Shown here: positions 900 through 61,801 of the stretch, in pieces
Layout: each line of letters begins with the position of its first letter
How positions within the stretch are numbered: position 1 is the first letter of the stretch
NCBI GenBank assembly: GCA_025716855.1
Contig: JAIXMQ010000029.1
Span: 124,001 to 188,000 of the forward strand
Direction: 5' to 3'
Length of the DNA stretch: 64,000 nucleotides
From: Pilaira anomala
Taxonomy: Eukaryota; Mucoromycota; Mucoromycetes; Mucorales; Mucoraceae
Notes under the pieces: model-generated
The model's input: only the letters and a program-made list of their open reading frames with translations
What the model was told of the DNA's origin: nothing
Database searches by the model: none
Translations under genes and position numbers: made by a program

Positions 900-2115
900 T
901 TACTTGAAGACCTTACCATCAACACAATCCTCAAAGTCCCAAGCGAGGTACTTGTAGAACTCTTCCTTCTTTTCTTCATATTGAGCGGGCTCAATCTTGG
1001 TGAAGTTGTAAGAAGCGAAATCAGCAGCATCGTAGATCTCGAAAGGAACTTCTTGACCACGAACAACAAAGTAACCAGAGATGGTGTTGTTGTTGTTTTC
1101 ACCACGAACAATCATGGAACCGAAAGCGTACTTGTGAGCACGTTCAATACGAGCATAGAAACCACCAATCAAGTTGTTAGACATGAAAGTCAAGGTAAGT
1201 TCATCGTTATACTTGTAATCAACCTTCCAGATAGAGTAACCCTCGGCATCAAAGTTTTCCCAGAACCACTTGATAGCATCCTTGGTCTCGTTGTTAGAGT
1301 ACTCACGCTTCCAGGCATCCAAAACGAACTTAGAAGGAGGTAATAAATCCAACTTGTTCTTGGGCTTAGGTGCAGGCTTAGCCTCTTCTTCTTCAGCAGC
1401 GGCCTTGGGGGCAGCTTCCTTCTTAGGAGCGGCTTCCTTCTTGGGAGCAGCCTCCTTCTTCTTCTCCTTCTTGGGGGGAGTGAACTTGAGAGCGGTTTCA
1501 CAAAGTTCAACATCACCGAGGTACTTCTTGAAGGCAGCCTTAGAAGCAACAGTGGTGAAGTAACGAGTGACGTTCTTGAATTGAGCACGGAAAGCCTTAT
1601 CGAAAACGGTCTTGAAACCGAGGACGAGAGAGGTGACAACAGCAATATCAGCAAAAGTGACAGATTCACCAACGAGGTAAGTCTTGGACTTGAGGATAGT
1701 GTTAAGAGCACCTAAAGATCTCTTGAGGTTCTCAGCAGCAGCATCAACGTTAGGCTTCATGTAGTTAACATAACCCATAAGAGGGTAGACCCAACCACCA
1801 AGAGGGGTGTTGATCTCGGTCTCAGAGAAAAGCATCCATTGCATGATTTCAGCCTTTTCGGCAGCAGTGGAACCTAAAAGAGGGTTGTTTTCCTTTTGAG
1901 CAGCGGCATAGAAAGCAATAGCAGAAGACTCGAAAAGGTTGACCTCAGAGGACTCGAGAACAGGGACCTTACCCATGGGGAACTTGGTCATGAACTCGGC
2001 GGTCTTATCAGTTTCGAAGTTGAAACCCTCAACCTTGAACTCAACACCACTTAATTCAGCCTATATATATATATATATATATTGTATTAGTCTTTTTTTT
2101 TCCAATACAAGATGA

Positions 2116-31375: not shown

Positions 31376-32613
31376 CTACACACATTTCCCAACTTTTGTG
31401 CAAGCACGACGTTTAGTAACACGAAAATTTTGAAGTGTAGTTTGTGATTTTGATATTGCTCGCTTAAGTGGTGGATGCTTTGAATTAGAGGATTTAATGG
31501 TGATAATCGTAGCTTTTTTAGTTTTACTAGGTTTCTTATTTTCTTTTTCTTCTTCTTCCTCCTCTTCTTCTTCTTCTTCTTGTTGTTCTTTAGCAATACG
31601 TCTCAACTTATTTGCAGTTTGATTCATTAATTTTTCGTTAGCAATTTTTTTATTTGTAATTTTAACCCATTCATCTGAATCACCAAGAACTTCATAATCA
31701 AATACTTTTTCCCATTCTTTTGTTGGACTAGTACGGTTCACAAATACAACACATCCACCTGGCTTTGAATGAATGATACGAGCGGCTTGTTTAATGAATT
31801 TTTTAAGTGCCGGGATCTTTAAAGAAGTACCCATTACAATCATAAGATCAGGTTTCTTTTTCAAATCACTGACCTGCAGCTGACCAATGGATTCACCATT
31901 TGGATGGTTTTCATTATAAAGCACAATGGCAGGTCGAAGTGTACCTACTGCTAATTGTCTTTTACCAAGTCGAGTTCTTTCTAAATCAATCGATTCACAA
32001 CGGGGACAAAGAGGTGCTTCTCCGTCACGGAACATTTTTTCGTATTCGTCAGTGAAATCATAATTTGAAGAACAAAGGGTACATTTAACTTCTTTCATGG
32101 TGCCGTGTAATTGAATGGTTGGAATATCTAAATCTTCTTCTAAAAAATCAATGTTTTGTGTATAGCAGCGTAATAATTGTCCCTTGTTGGTTAATGACTG
32201 AATAAACTCATGTGTCAATGTTGGATTTGCTTTGGAAATGAGTGATCGTAATTCAGCCATAAACGTATAGAAACATTGAATCGTCTTTTCGTTTCGAAAT
32301 AACGTCGCGTCAAACAGTTCTTGTCCACGTAAGACTATATCTGGATGTTGTTTTTTCACTAGATTATATAAACCATCGGCAGAACGAAAGTCCTTTTTTT
32401 TCAAAGTTGATGAGCGCGTTTATTTTTTTTTATATAGATGATGTTTTTTTTTTTTTTATTTATTTGGTAACTTACGGGAATGCCACTGCTACAAGAGATC
32501 CCTGCACCTGTTACAATCAATGCACGCTTACTTTTTGCGATGAATGAAGATAAATCAGTAAGAAGAGGATCAATAACTTCTGTAGGTTCAGAAATGGCTA
32601 TCTTGACCTTCAT
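31376..32613 (-). CDS. Sirtuin NAD-dependent deacetylase (HST3/HST4-like)
   Basis: Two exons: 32476-32613 and 31376-32392, split inside the NAD-binding loop (GAGISCSSGIP|DFRS) and joining in frame. The catalytic core is complete: TGAGIS, the TQNID NAD-binding motif, the general base in QLHGTMKEV, four zinc cysteines (CTLC and CPRC), RPAIVLYNE and VMGTSLKI. The C-terminal ~90 residues hold a pure Glu tract (EEEEEEEEEEE) followed by Lys/Ser-rich sequence, probably nuclear. Within the family the class with this spacing and a C-terminal tail resembles the yeast Hst3/Hst4 histone H3K56 deacetylases; that subfamily assignment is inference. About 340 bp separate it from the start of the protease gene downstream. 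Confidence 0.9.
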
Positions 32614-49600: not shown

Positions 49601-49717
49601 TTCTACATGTCAACAGGAACAGGTACTTATTTTTTTAACGTTTGCCTTATTATCTTTTGATTAACAATCGCATTAATACTATCTACATACACCACACCGA
49701 AGTAAAAACAAAAGAAC
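46660..49717. other. Long AT-rich gene-poor stretch
   Basis: About 3 kb with no gene I can support. A minus-strand ORF at 48408-48773 (MNNTYLPIEPICFPLTMKCQ, 121 residues) includes a poly-Lys end that comes from a T-run and is probably a relic or chance. Short T-rich blocks lie at 46866-46885 and 48445-48470. Confidence 0.5.
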
Positions 49718-49788
49718 TGCTGGTAGCAGGAATCGAACCTGCGTCGACGCGGCCACAACACGATGTACTGCCACTATACTATACCAGC
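49718..49788 (-). tRNA. tRNA-His (anticodon GTG)
   Basis: 71 nt on the minus strand that folds as a cloverleaf: acceptor GCTGGTA/TACCAGC (7 bp), D-stem GTAT/GTAC with AGTGGCA loop, anticodon loop TTGTGGC with GTG at 49754-49756, and T-arm GCAGG-TTCGATT-CCTGC, with discriminator A at 49718. The anticodon stem TCGTG/CGCGT has one T-T mismatch at its base and a G-T pair. There is no intron and no encoded CCA, as expected; G-1 would be added after transcription. Its 5' flank has been replaced by LINE sequence starting at 49789. Confidence 0.88.
49774..49788. repeat. Target-site duplication, copy 1 (inside tRNA-His)
   Basis: CTATACTATACCAGC, i.e. the first 15 nt of the tRNA gene in complement. 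Perfect copies occur at 50061-50075 and 50924-50938, immediately after each LINE 3' end. Confidence 0.93.
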
Positions 49789-50060
49789 ATATGATCTGCC
49801 ACCCTGACCAAGAATTCTCTTCTGCTGCTCTGGATGATACTGGATATAGTCTACTACTTAAATGGTACCCCGTTTAATTGTAGTATTACTATGCTCTCTC
49901 TATTCCTGTTTCTTCTATATTTTTTTACTAGTTTTAATTAGTTTTTTTCGATCTTAAATCCTTTTAAAAAGTTTTATTTTTTTATTTAATATGCACTTAG
50001 GGAGGCCAATTACCCCATAGGGAGGAGGCTAGTCACCCCACAATAAAAGCTTAATTTCAT
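49789..50060 (+). mobile_element. 5'-truncated non-LTR retrotransposon, copy 1 (272 bp)
   Basis: Starts abruptly at ATATGATCTG and runs through the ORF end (...LLLKWYPV stop) and the 3' UTR to TTAATTTCAT, with no poly-A tail. It is nearly identical to the last ~270 bp of copy 2 (one T-run length difference and a C/T change), so both are recent. It is flanked by the 15-bp tRNA-derived duplication. Confidence 0.88.
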
Positions 50061-50075
50061 CTATACTATACCAGC
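50061..50075. repeat. Target-site duplication, copy 2
   Basis: CTATACTATACCAGC between LINE copies 1 and 2. Confidence 0.93.
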
Positions 50076-50923
50076 TCCAACTGATACTCTGCTCTCCGTG
50101 GTTACTCGAGAGTGTACTCGCCGGACTTTTCTCTGGCCTAAGCTACAAGAATCGTGTGTTCTCTGGTCCTCTCTCTCTCCTAGGCTTAAGGCTATCTTAA
50201 CTGAGTGTGTTGATCCTGGAATTGTTGACTCTCATGCAAAGAAACGGCGCCAAGAAATTCTTGATAGTATTCGTGCTGGTCCGGATCCTCCTGTTCTTCT
50301 TTCTGCCTGCCGACCTAAGCTTGGTATCGATCCTATTCTGTATCTGCCAATGTCACTATATGAACGTAGTCGATTAGTGCGCTGGCGCATGGGGTGGCTA
50401 CCTGCTCGTCCTGTTGGTTGTAATAAGTGTTCCCACACTCATGCCTCGCGCCGTCATCTGATAGCTTGTCTCTCGGTTGCTACTCGTCTTGGTGTCTCTG
50501 AAACTTCTCTTCCTAATCCATTGGATTATTTTCTTAACAGTTACCTGCCAACACGGAAGCCAATTCTTGCTAGTTCTATGTACATGAATCCCAAACAGAA
50601 ACATCTAGTCAAATACTGGCCTGTTCTCTGTGCCATCATGCTCGAGATCGATATGATCTGTCACCCTGACCAAGAATTCTCTTCTGCTGCTCTGGATGAT
50701 ACTGGATATAGTCTACTACTTAAATGGTACCCCGTTTAATTGTAGTATTACTATGCTCTCTCTATTCCTGTTTCTTCTATATTTTTTTTACTAGTTTTAA
50801 TTAGTTTTTTTCGATCTTAAATCCTTTTAAAAAGTTTTATTTTTTTATTTAATATGCACTTAGGGAGGCCAATTACCCCATAGGGAGGAGGCTAGTCACC
50901 CCACAATAAAAGCTTAATTTCAT
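50076..50923 (+). mobile_element. 5'-truncated non-LTR retrotransposon, copy 2 (848 bp)
   Basis: The frame is open from the truncation point to the stop at 50739. It encodes the C-terminal end of a LINE ORF2-type polyprotein, with RWRMGWLPARPVGCNKC followed by SHTHASRRHLIAC, a CCHC-type zinc knuckle typical of the region after the reverse transcriptase. The reverse transcriptase and endonuclease themselves are missing. The ~185-bp 3' UTR contains GGGAGGCCAATTACCCCAT and GGGAGGAGGCTAGTCACCCC, which look like paired stem sequences, and ends TTAATTTCAT directly before the next tRNA-derived 15-mer. Confidence 0.85.
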
Positions 50924-50938
50924 CTATACTATACCAGC
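50924..50938. repeat. Target-site duplication, copy 3
   Basis: CTATACTATACCAGC followed by TGCCATGATACTG, probably the original 5' flank of the tRNA-His gene. Confidence 0.9.
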
Positions 50939-50999
50939 TGCCATGATACTGATTTATATTTTATATAATATATATATGGCAAAACAACTTTAAGTTATT

Positions 51000-51039
51000 A
51001 TCACGTGATATCACGTGATATCACGTGATAGTCATGTGA
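51000..51039. promoter_or_regulatory. Array of TCACGTGA palindromes
   Basis: TCACGTGA occurs at 51001-51008, 51011-51018 and 51021-51028 in exact 10-bp steps, with a fourth, TCATGTGA, at 51032-51039. CACGTG is the core of bHLH sites (Pho4, Cbf1/CDEI, SREBP-type). Confidence 0.55.
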
Positions 51040-51082
51040 TTTGTCTTTGTGTTGGTCAGTTGCATAAAGTAGAATTATGTTA

Positions 51083-52422
51083 TACAGTCGGAGTGAATAA
51101 AGATATGGATTTTTTGAAAGTTCAGTTTTTTTATTGTAAGGGTCTATTACTTTTATTTTAAGTTTGAATCACTTTTCGAAACACGATCGCTTTAATAATG
51201 CAAGACATCACTAACGTACAATACCAAAAGTATAAGGATCTCACCGATTACCAATACGGTCAGATCTCGGGTGCATATGAGTTCGGTAATTGTAAGATTG
51301 TGGACATTGCACGAAAAATGAATCTCAATACTTCAACCGTGTTTGGTTGTATAGAGCGAATCAAGAAAAATGGTACTGCCATACCAAAAAAAAGTACTGG
51401 AAGACCAAGAAAAGTTTCTGATAGAGACACAAGAGCTATAGTTCGAAGTGTGAAAAGTTTTCCTTTTGAGCCACTTCGGGTTCATAACGCACTATTGGCT
51501 CAAACAGGTATCAATATCTGCATTCAAACTCTCAAAAAATATTTGGAATTTACACACCAGCACGCAAACCAAGTTTAACACCTAAACATATGAAAAAGCG
51601 ACTCGAATGGTGTAAAAAAAGAGTTGATTGGTCGTTTGACAAGTGGGCATCTGTCATCTGGTCAGATGAATCTAGATTCACGGTTACAGGTAATGATGGA
51701 GGTGCTAAGGTAATCAGACGGGTTGGTGAGAGGTACCAGGAAGACAAAATCATTGGAACTCATAAGTTTGGAAAGGGATCAGTGATGATTTGGAGTTGCT
51801 TTTGGGCTGGTGGTATCGGCCCTCTTGTCATTTTAGATGAAAATGTTTACCAGGAAAGATACGCTAACCTTTTATCCTCCAGTTTCATCCCGTATCTCCG
51901 CAAACTTGAAGAGGATACCAATAGAAAGTTTATCTTTCAGGAGGATAATGCTCCTTGCCATGTCGTCAGCTATAGCACCTGGTATAAGGCAAGATGGGAG
52001 ATATACCCATTTGATTTCTGGCCTGCACAAAGTCCAGACCTCAACCCAATTGAGAATATCTGGACAAAGCTTGATAGCCTGATATCGAAACGCAGAGACT
52101 CCATTAACAGCAAGAATGACTTAAAGAGAGTCCTCATTGAAGAATGGGCGACAATTGATGTCAATTATTCAAGAGTTCTTGTTGAGTCAATGCCGAGTAG
52201 ATTGAAGGCAGTAATTGAAGCGAAGAGTGGGCACACAAAATATTAACCTTTTTTAAAATAAACTTTATTTTATACCAATAAACTCTTAAGCTACTTTGTG
52301 TTAAAATATCAATGAATTTAGTCTACATTTTATTATATAGTTTATTCATTTGAAATTAAACGATGTAGTTCGAATAATTTTTAAAAAATAAAAAATCCAT
52401 ATCTTTATTCACTCCGACTGTA
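51083..52422. mobile_element. Tc1/mariner-type transposon (1.34 kb)
   Basis: Element 51085-52420 with ~31-bp terminal inverted repeats starting CAGTCGGAGTGAATAAAG and flanked by TA on both sides (51083-51084 and 52421-52422). It contains one transposase reading frame with a single frameshift. Confidence 0.9.
51198..52246 (+). pseudogene. Tc1/mariner-type DDE transposase, frameshifted
   Basis: The N-terminal part (51198-51578) has helix-turn-helix segments (KIVDIARKMNLNTSTVFG and RKVSDRDTRAIVRSVKS). The C-terminal part, in another frame (about 51545-52246), has the DDE catalytic core VIWSDESRF, EDNAPCH and SPDLNPIENIW. One base appears to be lost near 51545 in an A/T-rich stretch, since either frame is clean on its side. 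I count 35 residues between the second Asp and the final Glu. Such elements cut and paste at TA dinucleotides. The single lesion suggests recent inactivity or a sequencing error. Confidence 0.88.
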
Positions 52423-55400
52423 TATATTCTACTGAGAAGCATACATGTATTTATATTATTATTACATTGTAGAAATTGTTGTTAATACTACTTGACTAAA
52501 TAAAAAAGTTTGTATTGTGTTTCGGCAAAGATTTTTTTAACTTAATTTTTGCTAGTAGTAGTTTGAAAGCTAGAGTTCCAAAAACTAACAAACGAAATAA
52601 TATAAACAAAAAAAAACTAAAATATCACAGGAAGAATAAATAAAGAAGATAGATGTACGATAATTTTTTAGCGTATAATGTGATATGTGACTGATTCAGA
52701 AGTTTATCAAACTGTTACGAATCGATAGCACTGAGATGTTCGAGCTATAAATGAGATAGAACAAACGAAAATAAAGTGCAATAAAAATATATAACAAAGG
52801 TTAAATAATCAGACTGCAAAAATAAACTAAACTTTATTAAAAGATACAAAAAGCATCTTAGTATATATAGTAAAATAGTAATTAAAGAGGCATTGCATGA
52901 ATAGTGAAACCTGACCTAGGTTTTGACCATCAGTTTGCCCACGTTGCATGTCATGGATAAACTAGTTCCTGAAGATTAACCAAGTTAATGTAACTGGCTG
53001 CTGTACCTGATAATTAATATAAAAGGAGATTTGCGTCAATAAATACGATGATGTGATTTATATGAAAGAACCAATTAAGTAATCAGAGTAGATAAACTTG
53101 TTGTATAGAAAAATAGAAGGAAGTTGAGAGCATATGATAATTATATGAGAATATAATGTGCTCGTTCACAACAAGCACTATAGATCTCATCATTAAAAGG
53201 ACAAAATGACTAATCATCAAAAGGGTTTTGTTAGAATCAGTTAATTTCAATAAATATAAACTTTCAACCACAAGTCAGAGATCCACAAAGTGATCGATGA
53301 TTATTCCTCCTTGTACAACATGTTTTTATGGATGATGATACATAAAACCTGTTCAAAAGAAAAAATACATAACAGATCGGGTAAATATTATATTATAGGT
53401 TCATTTTCGCCATTGGATTATAATCGCAACCTTGATACGTGTAAAGGGCTATTCTTGATTTTTTGCCTGATTTTATTTATTATTTTGTATTGTGATTAAT
53501 TCATAATATAAATAACAGTAATGAGAGTGGAAAGAAGTTCGATTTGTTGGAACCAACTAAAAATATAATATATAATAAAAGGAAATATAATTTTCTTGGA
53601 ATCAATACATAGACATAATTTATCAATACCCCAAACTTGTTTTTGATGAGTAGACAAGTAATACGTCAAAAGTTTATATGTTAATGTAATCTGTTAATTA
53701 AAGTTACTCATTTAGAAGCATTGCAGAAGATCTGATCTATTACATCTTGTTGTATAACTTCGATCATTGGTTGGCTTTTGAAAATGGAAACATTGAATGT
53801 AGGACAGTATACAATAATGGTATAATTATATATTTATCACCACCTGCACTTGTTATATTATTTTTGTTGTCGAATTCCGATTCCCTTTTAAGACTTTTAG
53901 AAAGGATAATATATATGTCAGTCTGTAACACTTTTAAGCGATATTAATTCAATTTCTATTATTGGTACCTTTTGGTAATACATTTTTTTTTAGAGTTCGA
54001 TTCATACATTTCCTTGACTATACAAAACATAAACAATAAGCATATTTGTAAATAATAGTTAAGTTTTGTATAGAAAATAAAAGAAGGTAATTTCTGAAAT
54101 ATATTCATGTTATCAGATTAAGAAGCCGAAATCGTTAGCTCAATTATACATGTTTTGTCATCTCCCCGACTACAAGACTGTATAATTGCGACAAATGGTA
54201 ATTATTTAGACGTATTGATTCAACGAAGAATATATTTTATGATCCCGAGAGAGTTTTATCGCACCCGAGAAAATAACTTTAAAATTTAAAAAAAGTAACC
54301 CAAATAACCAAATAGGTGCATTTTGTTATCATTACCTCATATAGAGACTGTGGTTGTATGGAGAAAGAAGAGAGGCAAAAAATACAAGGTAATTTAATAT
54401 GTATAGAAATTTACAAAAACAGCAAGCAGGCATGTGGTTTATAATTAATATCTATTTGAAGTGCGGCTACATAAATCAAGATTTAATATGATTAGATGGA
54501 GCCCATTCATTCGTATTTGATAAGATATGTGCTACTACCAGTGAATAAATCAGTCCCTTTTTTTTTCATGATTTAAATAACGCCATTAGTTAGACTAATT
54601 GAAAAAAAAGCTTAACTGCAACAATTATTGCAAAATTTGGTAGTTTATGATCGTATCGAGCGAGATCAATTTTTTTTAAAGTGTAAGATAGCGCAGCTGA
54701 AAAAAATAAAAAACTTATAAAGCATTCTTAAATTTCTATCGCAATGGTAACACACAGTTAAATATTATCAATGTGTAAAAACATGAAATATTATAATATG
54801 ATGTTTTCATTAATAAAACCACTCGGCTTATTTCTAAATTAAATAGTAGAACCGCAATAGAGTACATCATGTGCTGCGTAAGTAGGAACTGAATATAAGA
54901 TGCGAAGAGAAAAGCGATCCTTGAGGTAATTGATTGAAGTTCTTCTTACCGGCTTTTGGCGAACAAAGATAACATCAGCGTATATTCAGACAGACCAGAA
55001 ATGTTAGCAATTCCCGGTTATGAAATTATAAAATGTAAATGACGAAAGAAAAAGATAAAGAATAAAAGAAGTAATTCTTAAATGTTTAATATCAAAAGTT
55101 TAAGAAATACATACTCATTTCATTCTATATTTACATAAAAACGAAAAAAAGTGTCATTGATAAAATTCGTTTAACAACATAGTTTTATTGGCTGGAAAGA
55201 TCCTATTTTTCGAAATACCCTTTTCGAATTATACCTGCCTTAAAATGGCAACAAATAAGATAACTGGGCGGGGATTGAGAATAGATAAACCTTTTAAGTT
55301 TTTTTTTTTTGAAAACTCTAAGCAAAAGGGCTCAAACATAATTCCATTCTAGATGGTTTTTCTTACTATTTATTCATTCTGAACCAAACAATTGATGATC

Positions 55401-59529: not shown

Positions 59530-61801
59530 ATGTTATCTCGCTTATCTAGTACAGCAGCAAGATATGCTGTACGTAGTACAACTGGTCTCCGCCAACGTGC
59601 TATATTACAAAAACGTTTATATACGGACAAAAAACCAGAGGAACCTTTGAATGTCCCTAAAGGATTTGAAGGATTCTTTGGTAAAAAGAACAAGCCTTCA
59701 CCTAATGCCTCAAAGCAAGCTCCTCACAATAATTCCAAGCAACCCAATAACAAGTATCCCAAGTCTACACCACCACAACCAGATATGCCAAACATGAATA
59801 TCATTTTAGGTACCGTTTTTGGTACATACTTTTTATATCGAGCCGTAGCACCTTCTGAAAATTCGAAAGAATTAACATGGCAAGCATTCAGAACACAGTT
59901 GTTGGATAAGGGACTTGTGGATAGATTAGAGGTCTTGAATAAGAACAGAGTACGAGTGTATTTAAGAAACGAAGCCAATTCATTAGGTGTATCGCCTTCC
60001 ACCACATTTTATTTCTCTATTGGTTCAGTAGATGCTTTAGAACGTAGTTTGGATGAAGCACAAAAGGAATTAGGTATCCCTTCCAATGAGCGCGTACCTG
60101 TTGCTTACCATGAAGAAATTAGTGTCGGACAAACGATCCTTCATTTTGCTCCTACGCTTTTAATTATTGGTGTCATTTATTACATGACCAAAAAAGGTCC
60201 TGGAGGTGCTGGTGGCGGCATCTTTGGTATTGGTAAAAGTAAAGCAAAGATGTTTAACCAAGAAAATCAAGTGAGTGTTAAATTCAAGGATGTGGCTGGT
60301 GCAGATGAAGCCAAACTTGAGATTATGGAATTTGTAAATTTTTTGAAAAATCCAGAAATTTATGAAAAGTTGGGAGCTACTATTCCCAAGGGTGCTATCC
60401 TTTCCGGTCCTCCCGGTACCGGTAAAACTCTTTTAGCGAAGGCTACTGCGGGTGAAGCAGGTGTTCCATTTTACAGTGTCTCTGGTTCTGAATTCGTTGA
60501 GATGTTTGTAGGTGTAGGACCATCTCGTGTGCGTGATTTGTTTGCTACAGCAAAGAAGAATGCACCTTGTATTATCTTTGTGGATGAAATTGATGCAATT
60601 GGTAAAGCAAGAGGTAAAGGTGGACAAATGGGTGGTAATGATGAAAGAGAAAGTACTTTAAATCAATTGTTGGTTGAAATGGATGGGTTTGATTCAAGTC
60701 AACATGTTGTTGTTTTAGCAGGTACAAATCGTCCTGATGTATTAGATCCAGCTTTAATGCGTCCAGGTCGTTTTGATCGTCATATCTCAATTGACCGTCC
60801 TGATATTGGAGGTCGTGCAGAAATTATCAAGGTTCATTTGAAGCCTATCAAGACTAAGGTTGATATTGAACAACTCTCTCGTAAATTAGCTGCTTTAACA
60901 CCTGGTTTCAGTGGCGCTGATTTAAGAAATGTTTGCAATGAAGCAGCTTTAATTGCAGCTCGTCGTATGAAGGAAGAAGTCGAAGAAAAAGATTTTGAAG
61001 ATGCTATCGAACGTGTGATTGCAGGTCTTGAAAAGAAATCTCGCGTTTTATCACCCGAAGAAAAGAAGACGGTTGCATATCATGAAGCAGGTCATGCGGT
61101 TGCTGGTTGGTATCTTGAACACGCTGATCCTTTACTCAAGGTTTCTGTCATTCCTCGTGGTTCTGCAGCATTAGGTTACGCACAATATTTACCTAAGGAT
61201 CAATATCTTTATTCAAAGAAACAATTATTGGATCGTATGTGTATGACGTTGGGTGGTCGTGTTTCAGAAGAAATATTTTTTGATTCAATCACTACAGGTG
61301 CTCAAGATGATTTACAAAAGATTACCAAGATTGCTTATGCTCAAGTCACTACTTATGGTATGAATGATAAGGTTGGACCTATTTCATTCTCTGATCCTTC
61401 TGGTGAACAACAATTCCAAAAGCCATATTCTGAAAAGACTGGTACTTTAATTGATAATGAAGCTCGTAAATTGGTCACAGATGCGTATGCTCGTACATTA
61501 TCATTATTAAATGAAAAGAAGGAAGATATTGAAAAAGTAGCTCAATTGTTGTTAGAAAAAGAAGTTTTAACTAGAGAAGATATGGAGAATTTATTAGGTA
61601 AAAGACCTTTTGTTGAACATACTGTATATGATGAATATGTTAGAAGACCAGCAACAGGACACCAGGTAAATAAATTAAAGATTTAATATAATAGTGGTGT
61701 TTTTTGGTTATTTATTTTTTATTTTTCATTTTTTATGTATTTAGTCTGAAGAAGCACCCCCAGATTTCCCTTCAAAGTCGGACGATGGCAGTGTTCAATA
61801 A
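59530..61801 (+). CDS. AFG3: Mitochondrial m-AAA protease subunit (AFG3/YTA10-like)
   Basis: A single long exon from 59530 ([18 protein letters not shown], presequence), then one intron (61667 to 61744, donor GTAAAT) and a last exon [18 protein letters not shown] ending at 61801. It has an Asn/Lys/Pro-rich N-terminal segment, a first membrane span ([18 protein letters not shown]), an FtsH extracellular-type domain and a second span ([17 protein letters not shown]). The AAA domain shows Walker A GPPGTGKT, Walker [13 protein letters not shown] and the [21 protein letters not shown]. The M41 zinc-protease site is HEAGH. The subunits form a hexamer in the inner mitochondrial membrane that degrades misfolded proteins and processes MrpL32. 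The early membrane topology and C-terminus favour AFG3 over YTA12. Confidence 0.93.

Follow-up and report, generated by a model that had tools for sequence, protein, structure and literature searches.

The window analysed here, a 64,000-nucleotide stretch of the Pilaira anomala genome, raises the question of how two truncated LINE copies came to end at the identical base beside a tRNA-His gene that is itself intact. The initial annotation explained this arrangement by two separate target-primed insertions of a non-LTR retrotransposon at one fixed site within the gene. The genome searched for related junctions comprises 34.25 Mb in 225 contigs, and labels such as C1 and C12 denote these contigs. 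The features of the locus are as follows.

49717-49789, minus strand: intact tRNA-His(GTG) gene as called by ARAGORN; placed by Rfam at 49718-49788 on the same strand
49774-49788, no strand: target, by sequence match the reverse complement of tRNA-His nt 1-15; position 49774 pairs with nt 15
49789-50060, plus strand: LINE copy 1, 5′-truncated, 272 bp, with the final ORF2 codons and the 3′ UTR; 100% to the C143 element
50061-50075, no strand: target-site duplication of nt 1-14; the initial C may be the last base of the element
50076-50923, plus strand: LINE copy 2, 5′-truncated, 848 bp, with the C-terminal approximately 220 residues of ORF2 and the 3′ UTR; match to the C143 element
50924-50938, no strand: outer target-site duplication, by match to CTATACTATACCAGC
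50939-51027, no strand: flank that originally lay upstream of the tRNA-His gene, by comparison with four of four uninserted tRNA-His genes; CACGTG at 51002, 51012 and 51022

The 15-mer CTATACTATACCAGC is present at 49774-49788, 50061-50075 and 50924-50938 with 0 mismatches, exactly as annotated. No fourth site occurs in the window even when one mismatch is allowed, and at least three matches were obtained in 0 of 100 shuffles. Both LINE copies have the 3′ end ...TTAATTTCAT directly before the 15-mer and differ at their 5′ ends, which agrees with the original description. Copy 1 is identical to the last 272 bp of an element on C143, and copy 2 matches the last 847 bp of the same element with 99.65% identity (two mismatches and one gap in 848). 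The window copies are not autonomous because only the ORF2 C-terminus is present; no endonuclease or RT domain was found in copy 2.

One insertion followed by local tandem duplication of the LINE together with its 15-mer, an alternative already named by the initial annotation, would also place two copies at this site and would fit the 157 identical bases, 15-mer included, that are common to the 3′ regions of copies 1 and 2. The 5′ ends of the copies are unlike, however (272 versus 848 bp), the sequences beyond the two 15-mers are unrelated, copy 1 agrees with the C143 element at 272 of 272 bases yet differs from copy 2, and the same type of junction recurs at unrelated loci and isotypes. Such a duplication is highly improbable. 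Very likely, the locus reflects two target-primed insertions, one after the other, of an L1-like APE LINE whose target is the tRNA A box. Copy 1 should be the younger of the two, in line with its 100% match to the C143 element. Inside the displaced tRNA upstream flank lies a Tc1/mariner-like DNA transposon (51081-52424) with 35-bp perfect inverted repeats and with DDE_3 and Tc3-type HTH matches, its coding sequence split between two frames. Ordinary host genes in the window encode an EF1-gamma with GST domains (903-2060, minus strand), a SIR2 family protein (31379-32419, minus strand) and an FtsH-like AAA/M41 protease (59530-61683, plus strand).

The initial annotation had proposed to classify the RT and endonuclease of a full-length element. 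In the element on C143 the frames of both ORFs are open, ORF1 with 504 aa and ORF2 with 1183 aa, the latter with Exo_endo_phos and RVT_1 matches (Pfam). A profile of 12 ORF2s (C143 and 11 homologues) was colinear with human L1 ORF2p from the endonuclease through the RT (E 5e-37) and also reached the L1-EN (2v0r) and TRAS1-EN (1wdu) structures; the endonuclease part alone, used as a single-sequence query, gave no PDB match. Thus, the element has the N-terminal APE-like endonuclease followed by RT that defines APE-type (L1-like) non-LTR retrotransposons, and the copies display the fixed 3′ end, variable 5′ truncation and target-site duplication of this class. No Pfam family of restriction-like endonucleases, the hallmark of the NeSL/LIN elements, was detected in ORF2. 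ORF1 matched no Pfam family at E 0.1; six homologues of it were found. The genera named for homologues are Mucor, Rhizopus, Phycomyces, Gilbertella and Dichotomocladium. A collection of genome contigs yielded 14 far relatives with at most 29% identity, and no relatives with flanking DNA were confirmed among viral contigs. At the gathering score, Rfam reported nothing but tRNA, and no 5′ ribozyme, in the window and in the loci L026, L024 and L028.

The genome-wide junctions were used to decide whether LINE copies of this type end at one site or next to unrelated sequence, as the initial annotation had asked. The 15-mer has 10 matches in the genome, namely six tRNA-His genes and four LINE 3′ junctions (C148 twice, C54 and C12). 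In total, 26 LINE 3′ ends were compiled: seven with a 144-bp 3′-end query, six, two and four with three queries taken from the 3′ UTRs of other branches, five read from flanking sequence, plus C157c and C75. The tRNA 5′ end (reverse complement of nt 1-14) adjoins 24 of these 26 ends, so that most copies lie at one defined site, as expected of a site-specific LINE. The idea of a fixed tRNA target was therefore upheld, but its restriction to tRNA-His was not, since about 11 isotypes are used: His at four junctions, Glu at one, Asp at two, Thr at three, Lys at two, Trp at one, a Phe-like tRNA at one, Tyr at one, Ala at five, Leu at two and Gly at two. Specificity for tRNA-His alone was ruled out by the C143 element, which matches both window copies over their length (100% and 99.65%) and has a tRNA-Glu 3′ junction.

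At 20 junctions the match to tRNA nt 1-14 is complete (14/14); it is 13/14 at C160, C157b and C157c and 11/14 at C97 (Phe). The tRNA identities were obtained by ARAGORN on genes taken from the genome. ARAGORN left one target, with the anticodon gtag and an intron-like insert, without an isotype, and we read it as Tyr; C157b and C157c were assigned to Ala by a junction match with one difference from tRNA-Ala, the adjoining gene itself lying outside the sequence read. The two exceptions among the 26 ends are C145 and C75. The C145 end belongs to a 79%-diverged copy, which terminates in ...CTTAAACTGAGAAAGGG with no recognised tRNA adjoining; at this locus (L079, C145:56440-56800) CTGAG is the sole stretch common with the tRNA targets. 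The C75 copy (L101, C75:19280-19900) ends approximately six bases short of the end of its subfamily and is followed by unrelated sequence; AAGCCATGGGC comes after this 3′ end and might represent a damaged tRNA-like junction. The count of 26 leaves out C68, C156, C85, C35:4954, C54:555-1442 and the last C90 element, whose 3′ ends lie outside the sequence read. At C136, C182, C44 and C78, where the 3′ end is not recognisable, none of the 17 tRNA 14-mers tested was found within 1.5-1.7 kb downstream, and C70 lost its 3′ end early, which makes it likewise unrecognisable.

The junctions also locate the cuts. At targets with A15 (tRNA-Trp at C158 and a tRNA-Ala gene at C193 with two junctions), the downstream copy carries C and not T; C90, C157b and C157c fit the same pattern only if the Ala gene targeted there is likewise of the A15 type. 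Because the A15 targets show this downstream C, we assigned it to the 3′ end of the element, and from the sequences compared the most plausible place for the nick in the primer strand is between A14 and R15. The nick predicted by the initial annotation thus remains within the A box but moves by one base, from 15/16 to 14/15. The second cut had been placed at the tRNA 5′ boundary, and this part of the prediction was retained. The start of the element lies 0-3 nt from tRNA nt 1 at C1, C158, C35, C157a, C54, C68 and C90, 8 nt from the tRNA at C97 and 22 bp from tRNA-Lys at C143; these distances place the second cut at the 5′ end of the tRNA. At C54, C12, C112 and C141 (L024, L025, L028 and L055), approximately 8-17 nt resembling the 5′ tip of the element follow the target duplication before unrelated sequence begins, and these stretches are possibly remnants of older insertions.

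Taken in the order that we infer, the ORF2 endonuclease would introduce a nick between A14 and R15 on the tRNA-sense strand, and the freed 3′ end (tRNA nt 1-14) would serve as the primer from which the LINE RNA is reverse-transcribed, starting at the fixed 3′ end of this RNA. The opposite strand would then be cut across from the tRNA 5′ boundary, and repair would leave a 14-15 bp duplication restoring nt 1-14/15. Since nt 1-14/15 are restored, the tRNA gene is left whole, its target is re-created and the spot can be used again. The proposal that the duplication rebuilds the host gene holds for the structure of the locus: all six tRNA-His genes, including the two inserted ones (C148 and C54), are identical over 71 nt. 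This identity is no proof of continued function but is consistent with it.

A later insertion would enter between the gene and the older copy, giving a head-to-tail stack with the youngest element adjoining the tRNA. Another element does follow directly after nine of the 24 tRNA junctions (C148 copy 1, C97, C192a, C59, C193 twice, C90, C157b and C144b). A tRNA was also seen on the 5′ side of 14 copies or stacks. It agrees with the 3′ target in 10 of them (C148, C54, C1, C158, C35, C157a, C59, C193, roughly at C97, and at C160 from a distance of 1.3 kb); for C158, C1 and C97, a single element is assumed across 2.7, 1.5 and 0.6 kb, respectively, of partly unread sequence between the tRNA and ORF2. 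In the remaining four, the 5′ and 3′ tRNAs differ: Lys/Glu at C143, Pro/Asp at C112, Met/Tyr at C183 and Gly/Ala at C90, where the stack continues past the end of the contig.

Simple TPRT does not yield mismatched flanking tRNAs. As an addition to the main explanation, we prefer, with little more than even confidence, recombination or one-ended joining between elements residing at different tRNA loci. The C112 element is a mosaic, with its first approximately 400 bp 99-100% identical to C143 and the remainder only 68-88%, as recombination would produce. For a Dada transposon that lies between pieces of two different tRNAs, the report describing it gives one-ended transposition as the explanation (PMC3706591), which provides a parallel for one-ended joining. 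The same picture could arise without recombination, through misassembly or from co-transcripts that read through a stack. The C54 and C143 elements are 98% identical over the first 200 bp and 76-83% over the next 1400 bp. Similarly, L024, L026 and L028 are 98-100% identical over their first 200-400 bp and otherwise about 68-95%, and a CTTTCNCTT-like 5′ tip abutting the tRNA is common to several subfamilies. Such near-identical 5′ ends and the common tip may reflect either constraint or exchange of 5′ ends.

To assess what is recognised at the target, the junctions were compared with a tree of 20 ORF2s, all from the Pilaira anomala genome, in which 15 of 17 inner branches were starred and C144_Gly sits on a long branch with an unsure place. 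For the 16 ORF2s with a known target, the class of A-box core required three changes for four classes, the smallest number possible and one that 0 of 1000 shuffles reached; the classes were defined post hoc, with the junctions already seen, and the shuffles keep class sizes, the largest class holding 10 of the 16 rows. Isotype required 12 changes, and 486 of 1000 shuffles needed as few. Close relatives reside at different tRNAs that have the same core, namely Leu(AAG)/Leu(CAA), Thr/Trp, Phe/Lys and His/Glu. From these comparisons, the LINE clades appear to track the A-box core and not the isotype. Because the clades sort by core and close relatives share it across isotypes, a reading of the A-box sequence, probably by the endonuclease itself, is favoured over recognition of the isotype and over pure tethering. 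Tethering of the element to pol III factors bound at the gene would account for the many isotypes, every target being a pol III gene, and has a possible precedent in TRE5-A, whose ORF1p may bind TFIIIB subunits as described in PMC5006619. We nevertheless consider it unlikely that tethering replaces reading of the A box, as the junctions are base-exact with no spread over a window and the clades sort by core sequence. Tethering combined with a local sequence preference would be compatible with the data.

CACGTG repeats lie roughly 50-80 bp upstream of all four uninserted tRNA-His genes. In the window, CACGTG (51002-51027) starts 64 bp past the outer 15-mer and is now about 1.2 kb from the tRNA-His gene; its displacement beyond the LINEs indicates that insertion took place between the tRNA gene and its upstream region. 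At the 15 junctions not followed by a next element, CACGTG starts 55-66 bp past the duplication in 12 but not in C54, C112 and C157c. The idea that CACGTG marks only targeted genes was ruled out, since it also lies upstream of uninserted tRNAs. With up to two mismatches, CACGTGATNTNCACGTGA has 287 matches in the genome versus six for a reversed control. Among the 100 matches listed, 18 (at 17 tRNAs) are located 53-69 bp upstream of a gene from a list of 61 tRNA genes, and none lies at this distance downstream of these 61 genes. In Pilaira anomala, CACGTGATNTNCACGTGA seems to accompany tRNA genes in general as an upstream element.

Mutsu, Keno and Dewa are members of Tx1. They are described as LINEs aimed at small-RNA genes (5S, U2 and a tRNA-Leu spacer, respectively; PMC3706591), and the Tx1 clade is reported to have an APE-type endonuclease (PMC4640811); compared by description, they resemble the Pilaira clade in targeting small-RNA genes but have other targets. 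The initial annotation regarded LINEs aimed at the body of a tRNA gene as rare. Precedents do exist, as NeSL-1_TV (tRNA-Pro), LIN15_SM (tRNA-Arg) and LIN25_SM (tRNA-Glu) are described as non-LTR elements specific for a tRNA gene (PMC4640811). In contrast to the APE-type Pilaira clade with its about 11 isotypes, these belong to the restriction-like-endonuclease lineage and are listed with one tRNA each.

The accompanying statement that the Dictyostelium TREs land beside tRNA genes is borne out by the accounts of these elements, in which TRE5 and TRE3 integrate approximately 50 bp upstream or approximately 100 bp downstream (PMC5006619) and TREs and NLTR-A/B adjoin tRNA genes (PMC5006619, PMC5911963). 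Dictyostelid TREs are tied to tRNA genes and have an APE endonuclease, as the Pilaira clade does, but stay outside the gene, whereas the Pilaira junctions lie at nt 14/15 and nt 1. Dp_NLTR-A is described as sitting 2-6 bp upstream of the mature tRNA and as having an RNase H domain, and the terms 'target site duplication' and 'TSD' are absent from the main text of PMC5006619; should the tRNA 5′ end fall within its duplication, it may, by analogy, work like the Pilaira clade. Dada DNA transposons are reported to insert inside tRNA genes as well, in the A box or the anticodon region depending on the family (PMC8869645, PMC3706591). Unlike the Pilaira clade, they use a DDE transposase and make a 6-7 bp duplication, which would presumably not rebuild the gene. 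Grem-LINE1 of Mucor is, like the Pilaira clade, an L1-like LINE of Mucorales; compared by description, it differs in being pericentric and in being drawn with a zf-RVT domain (PMC7377519). The word tRNA is absent from the main text of two Mucor transposon papers (PMC11943222, PMC7377519).

Searches of open-licence papers turned up no LINE clade of APE type directed at the A box across many tRNA isotypes. As far as these limited searches show, a multi-isotype, A-box-directed and gene-restoring APE LINE clade is new; LINEs inside tRNA genes were already known.

On balance, we think it probable that a diversified L1-like clade of Mucorales has adopted the A box, and not one gene, as its landing site, with endonucleases that diverge by core class. 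Each insertion would rebuild its own target, the many isotypes would serve as renewable safe havens, and the gene would be severed from its upstream CACGTG. The clade shows how a LINE can enter the genes of an essential family and leave them undestroyed, at a site where insertions stack. Its related APE endonucleases also form a natural series that sorts by A-box core, which makes the acquisition and switching of targets in APE LINEs directly testable.
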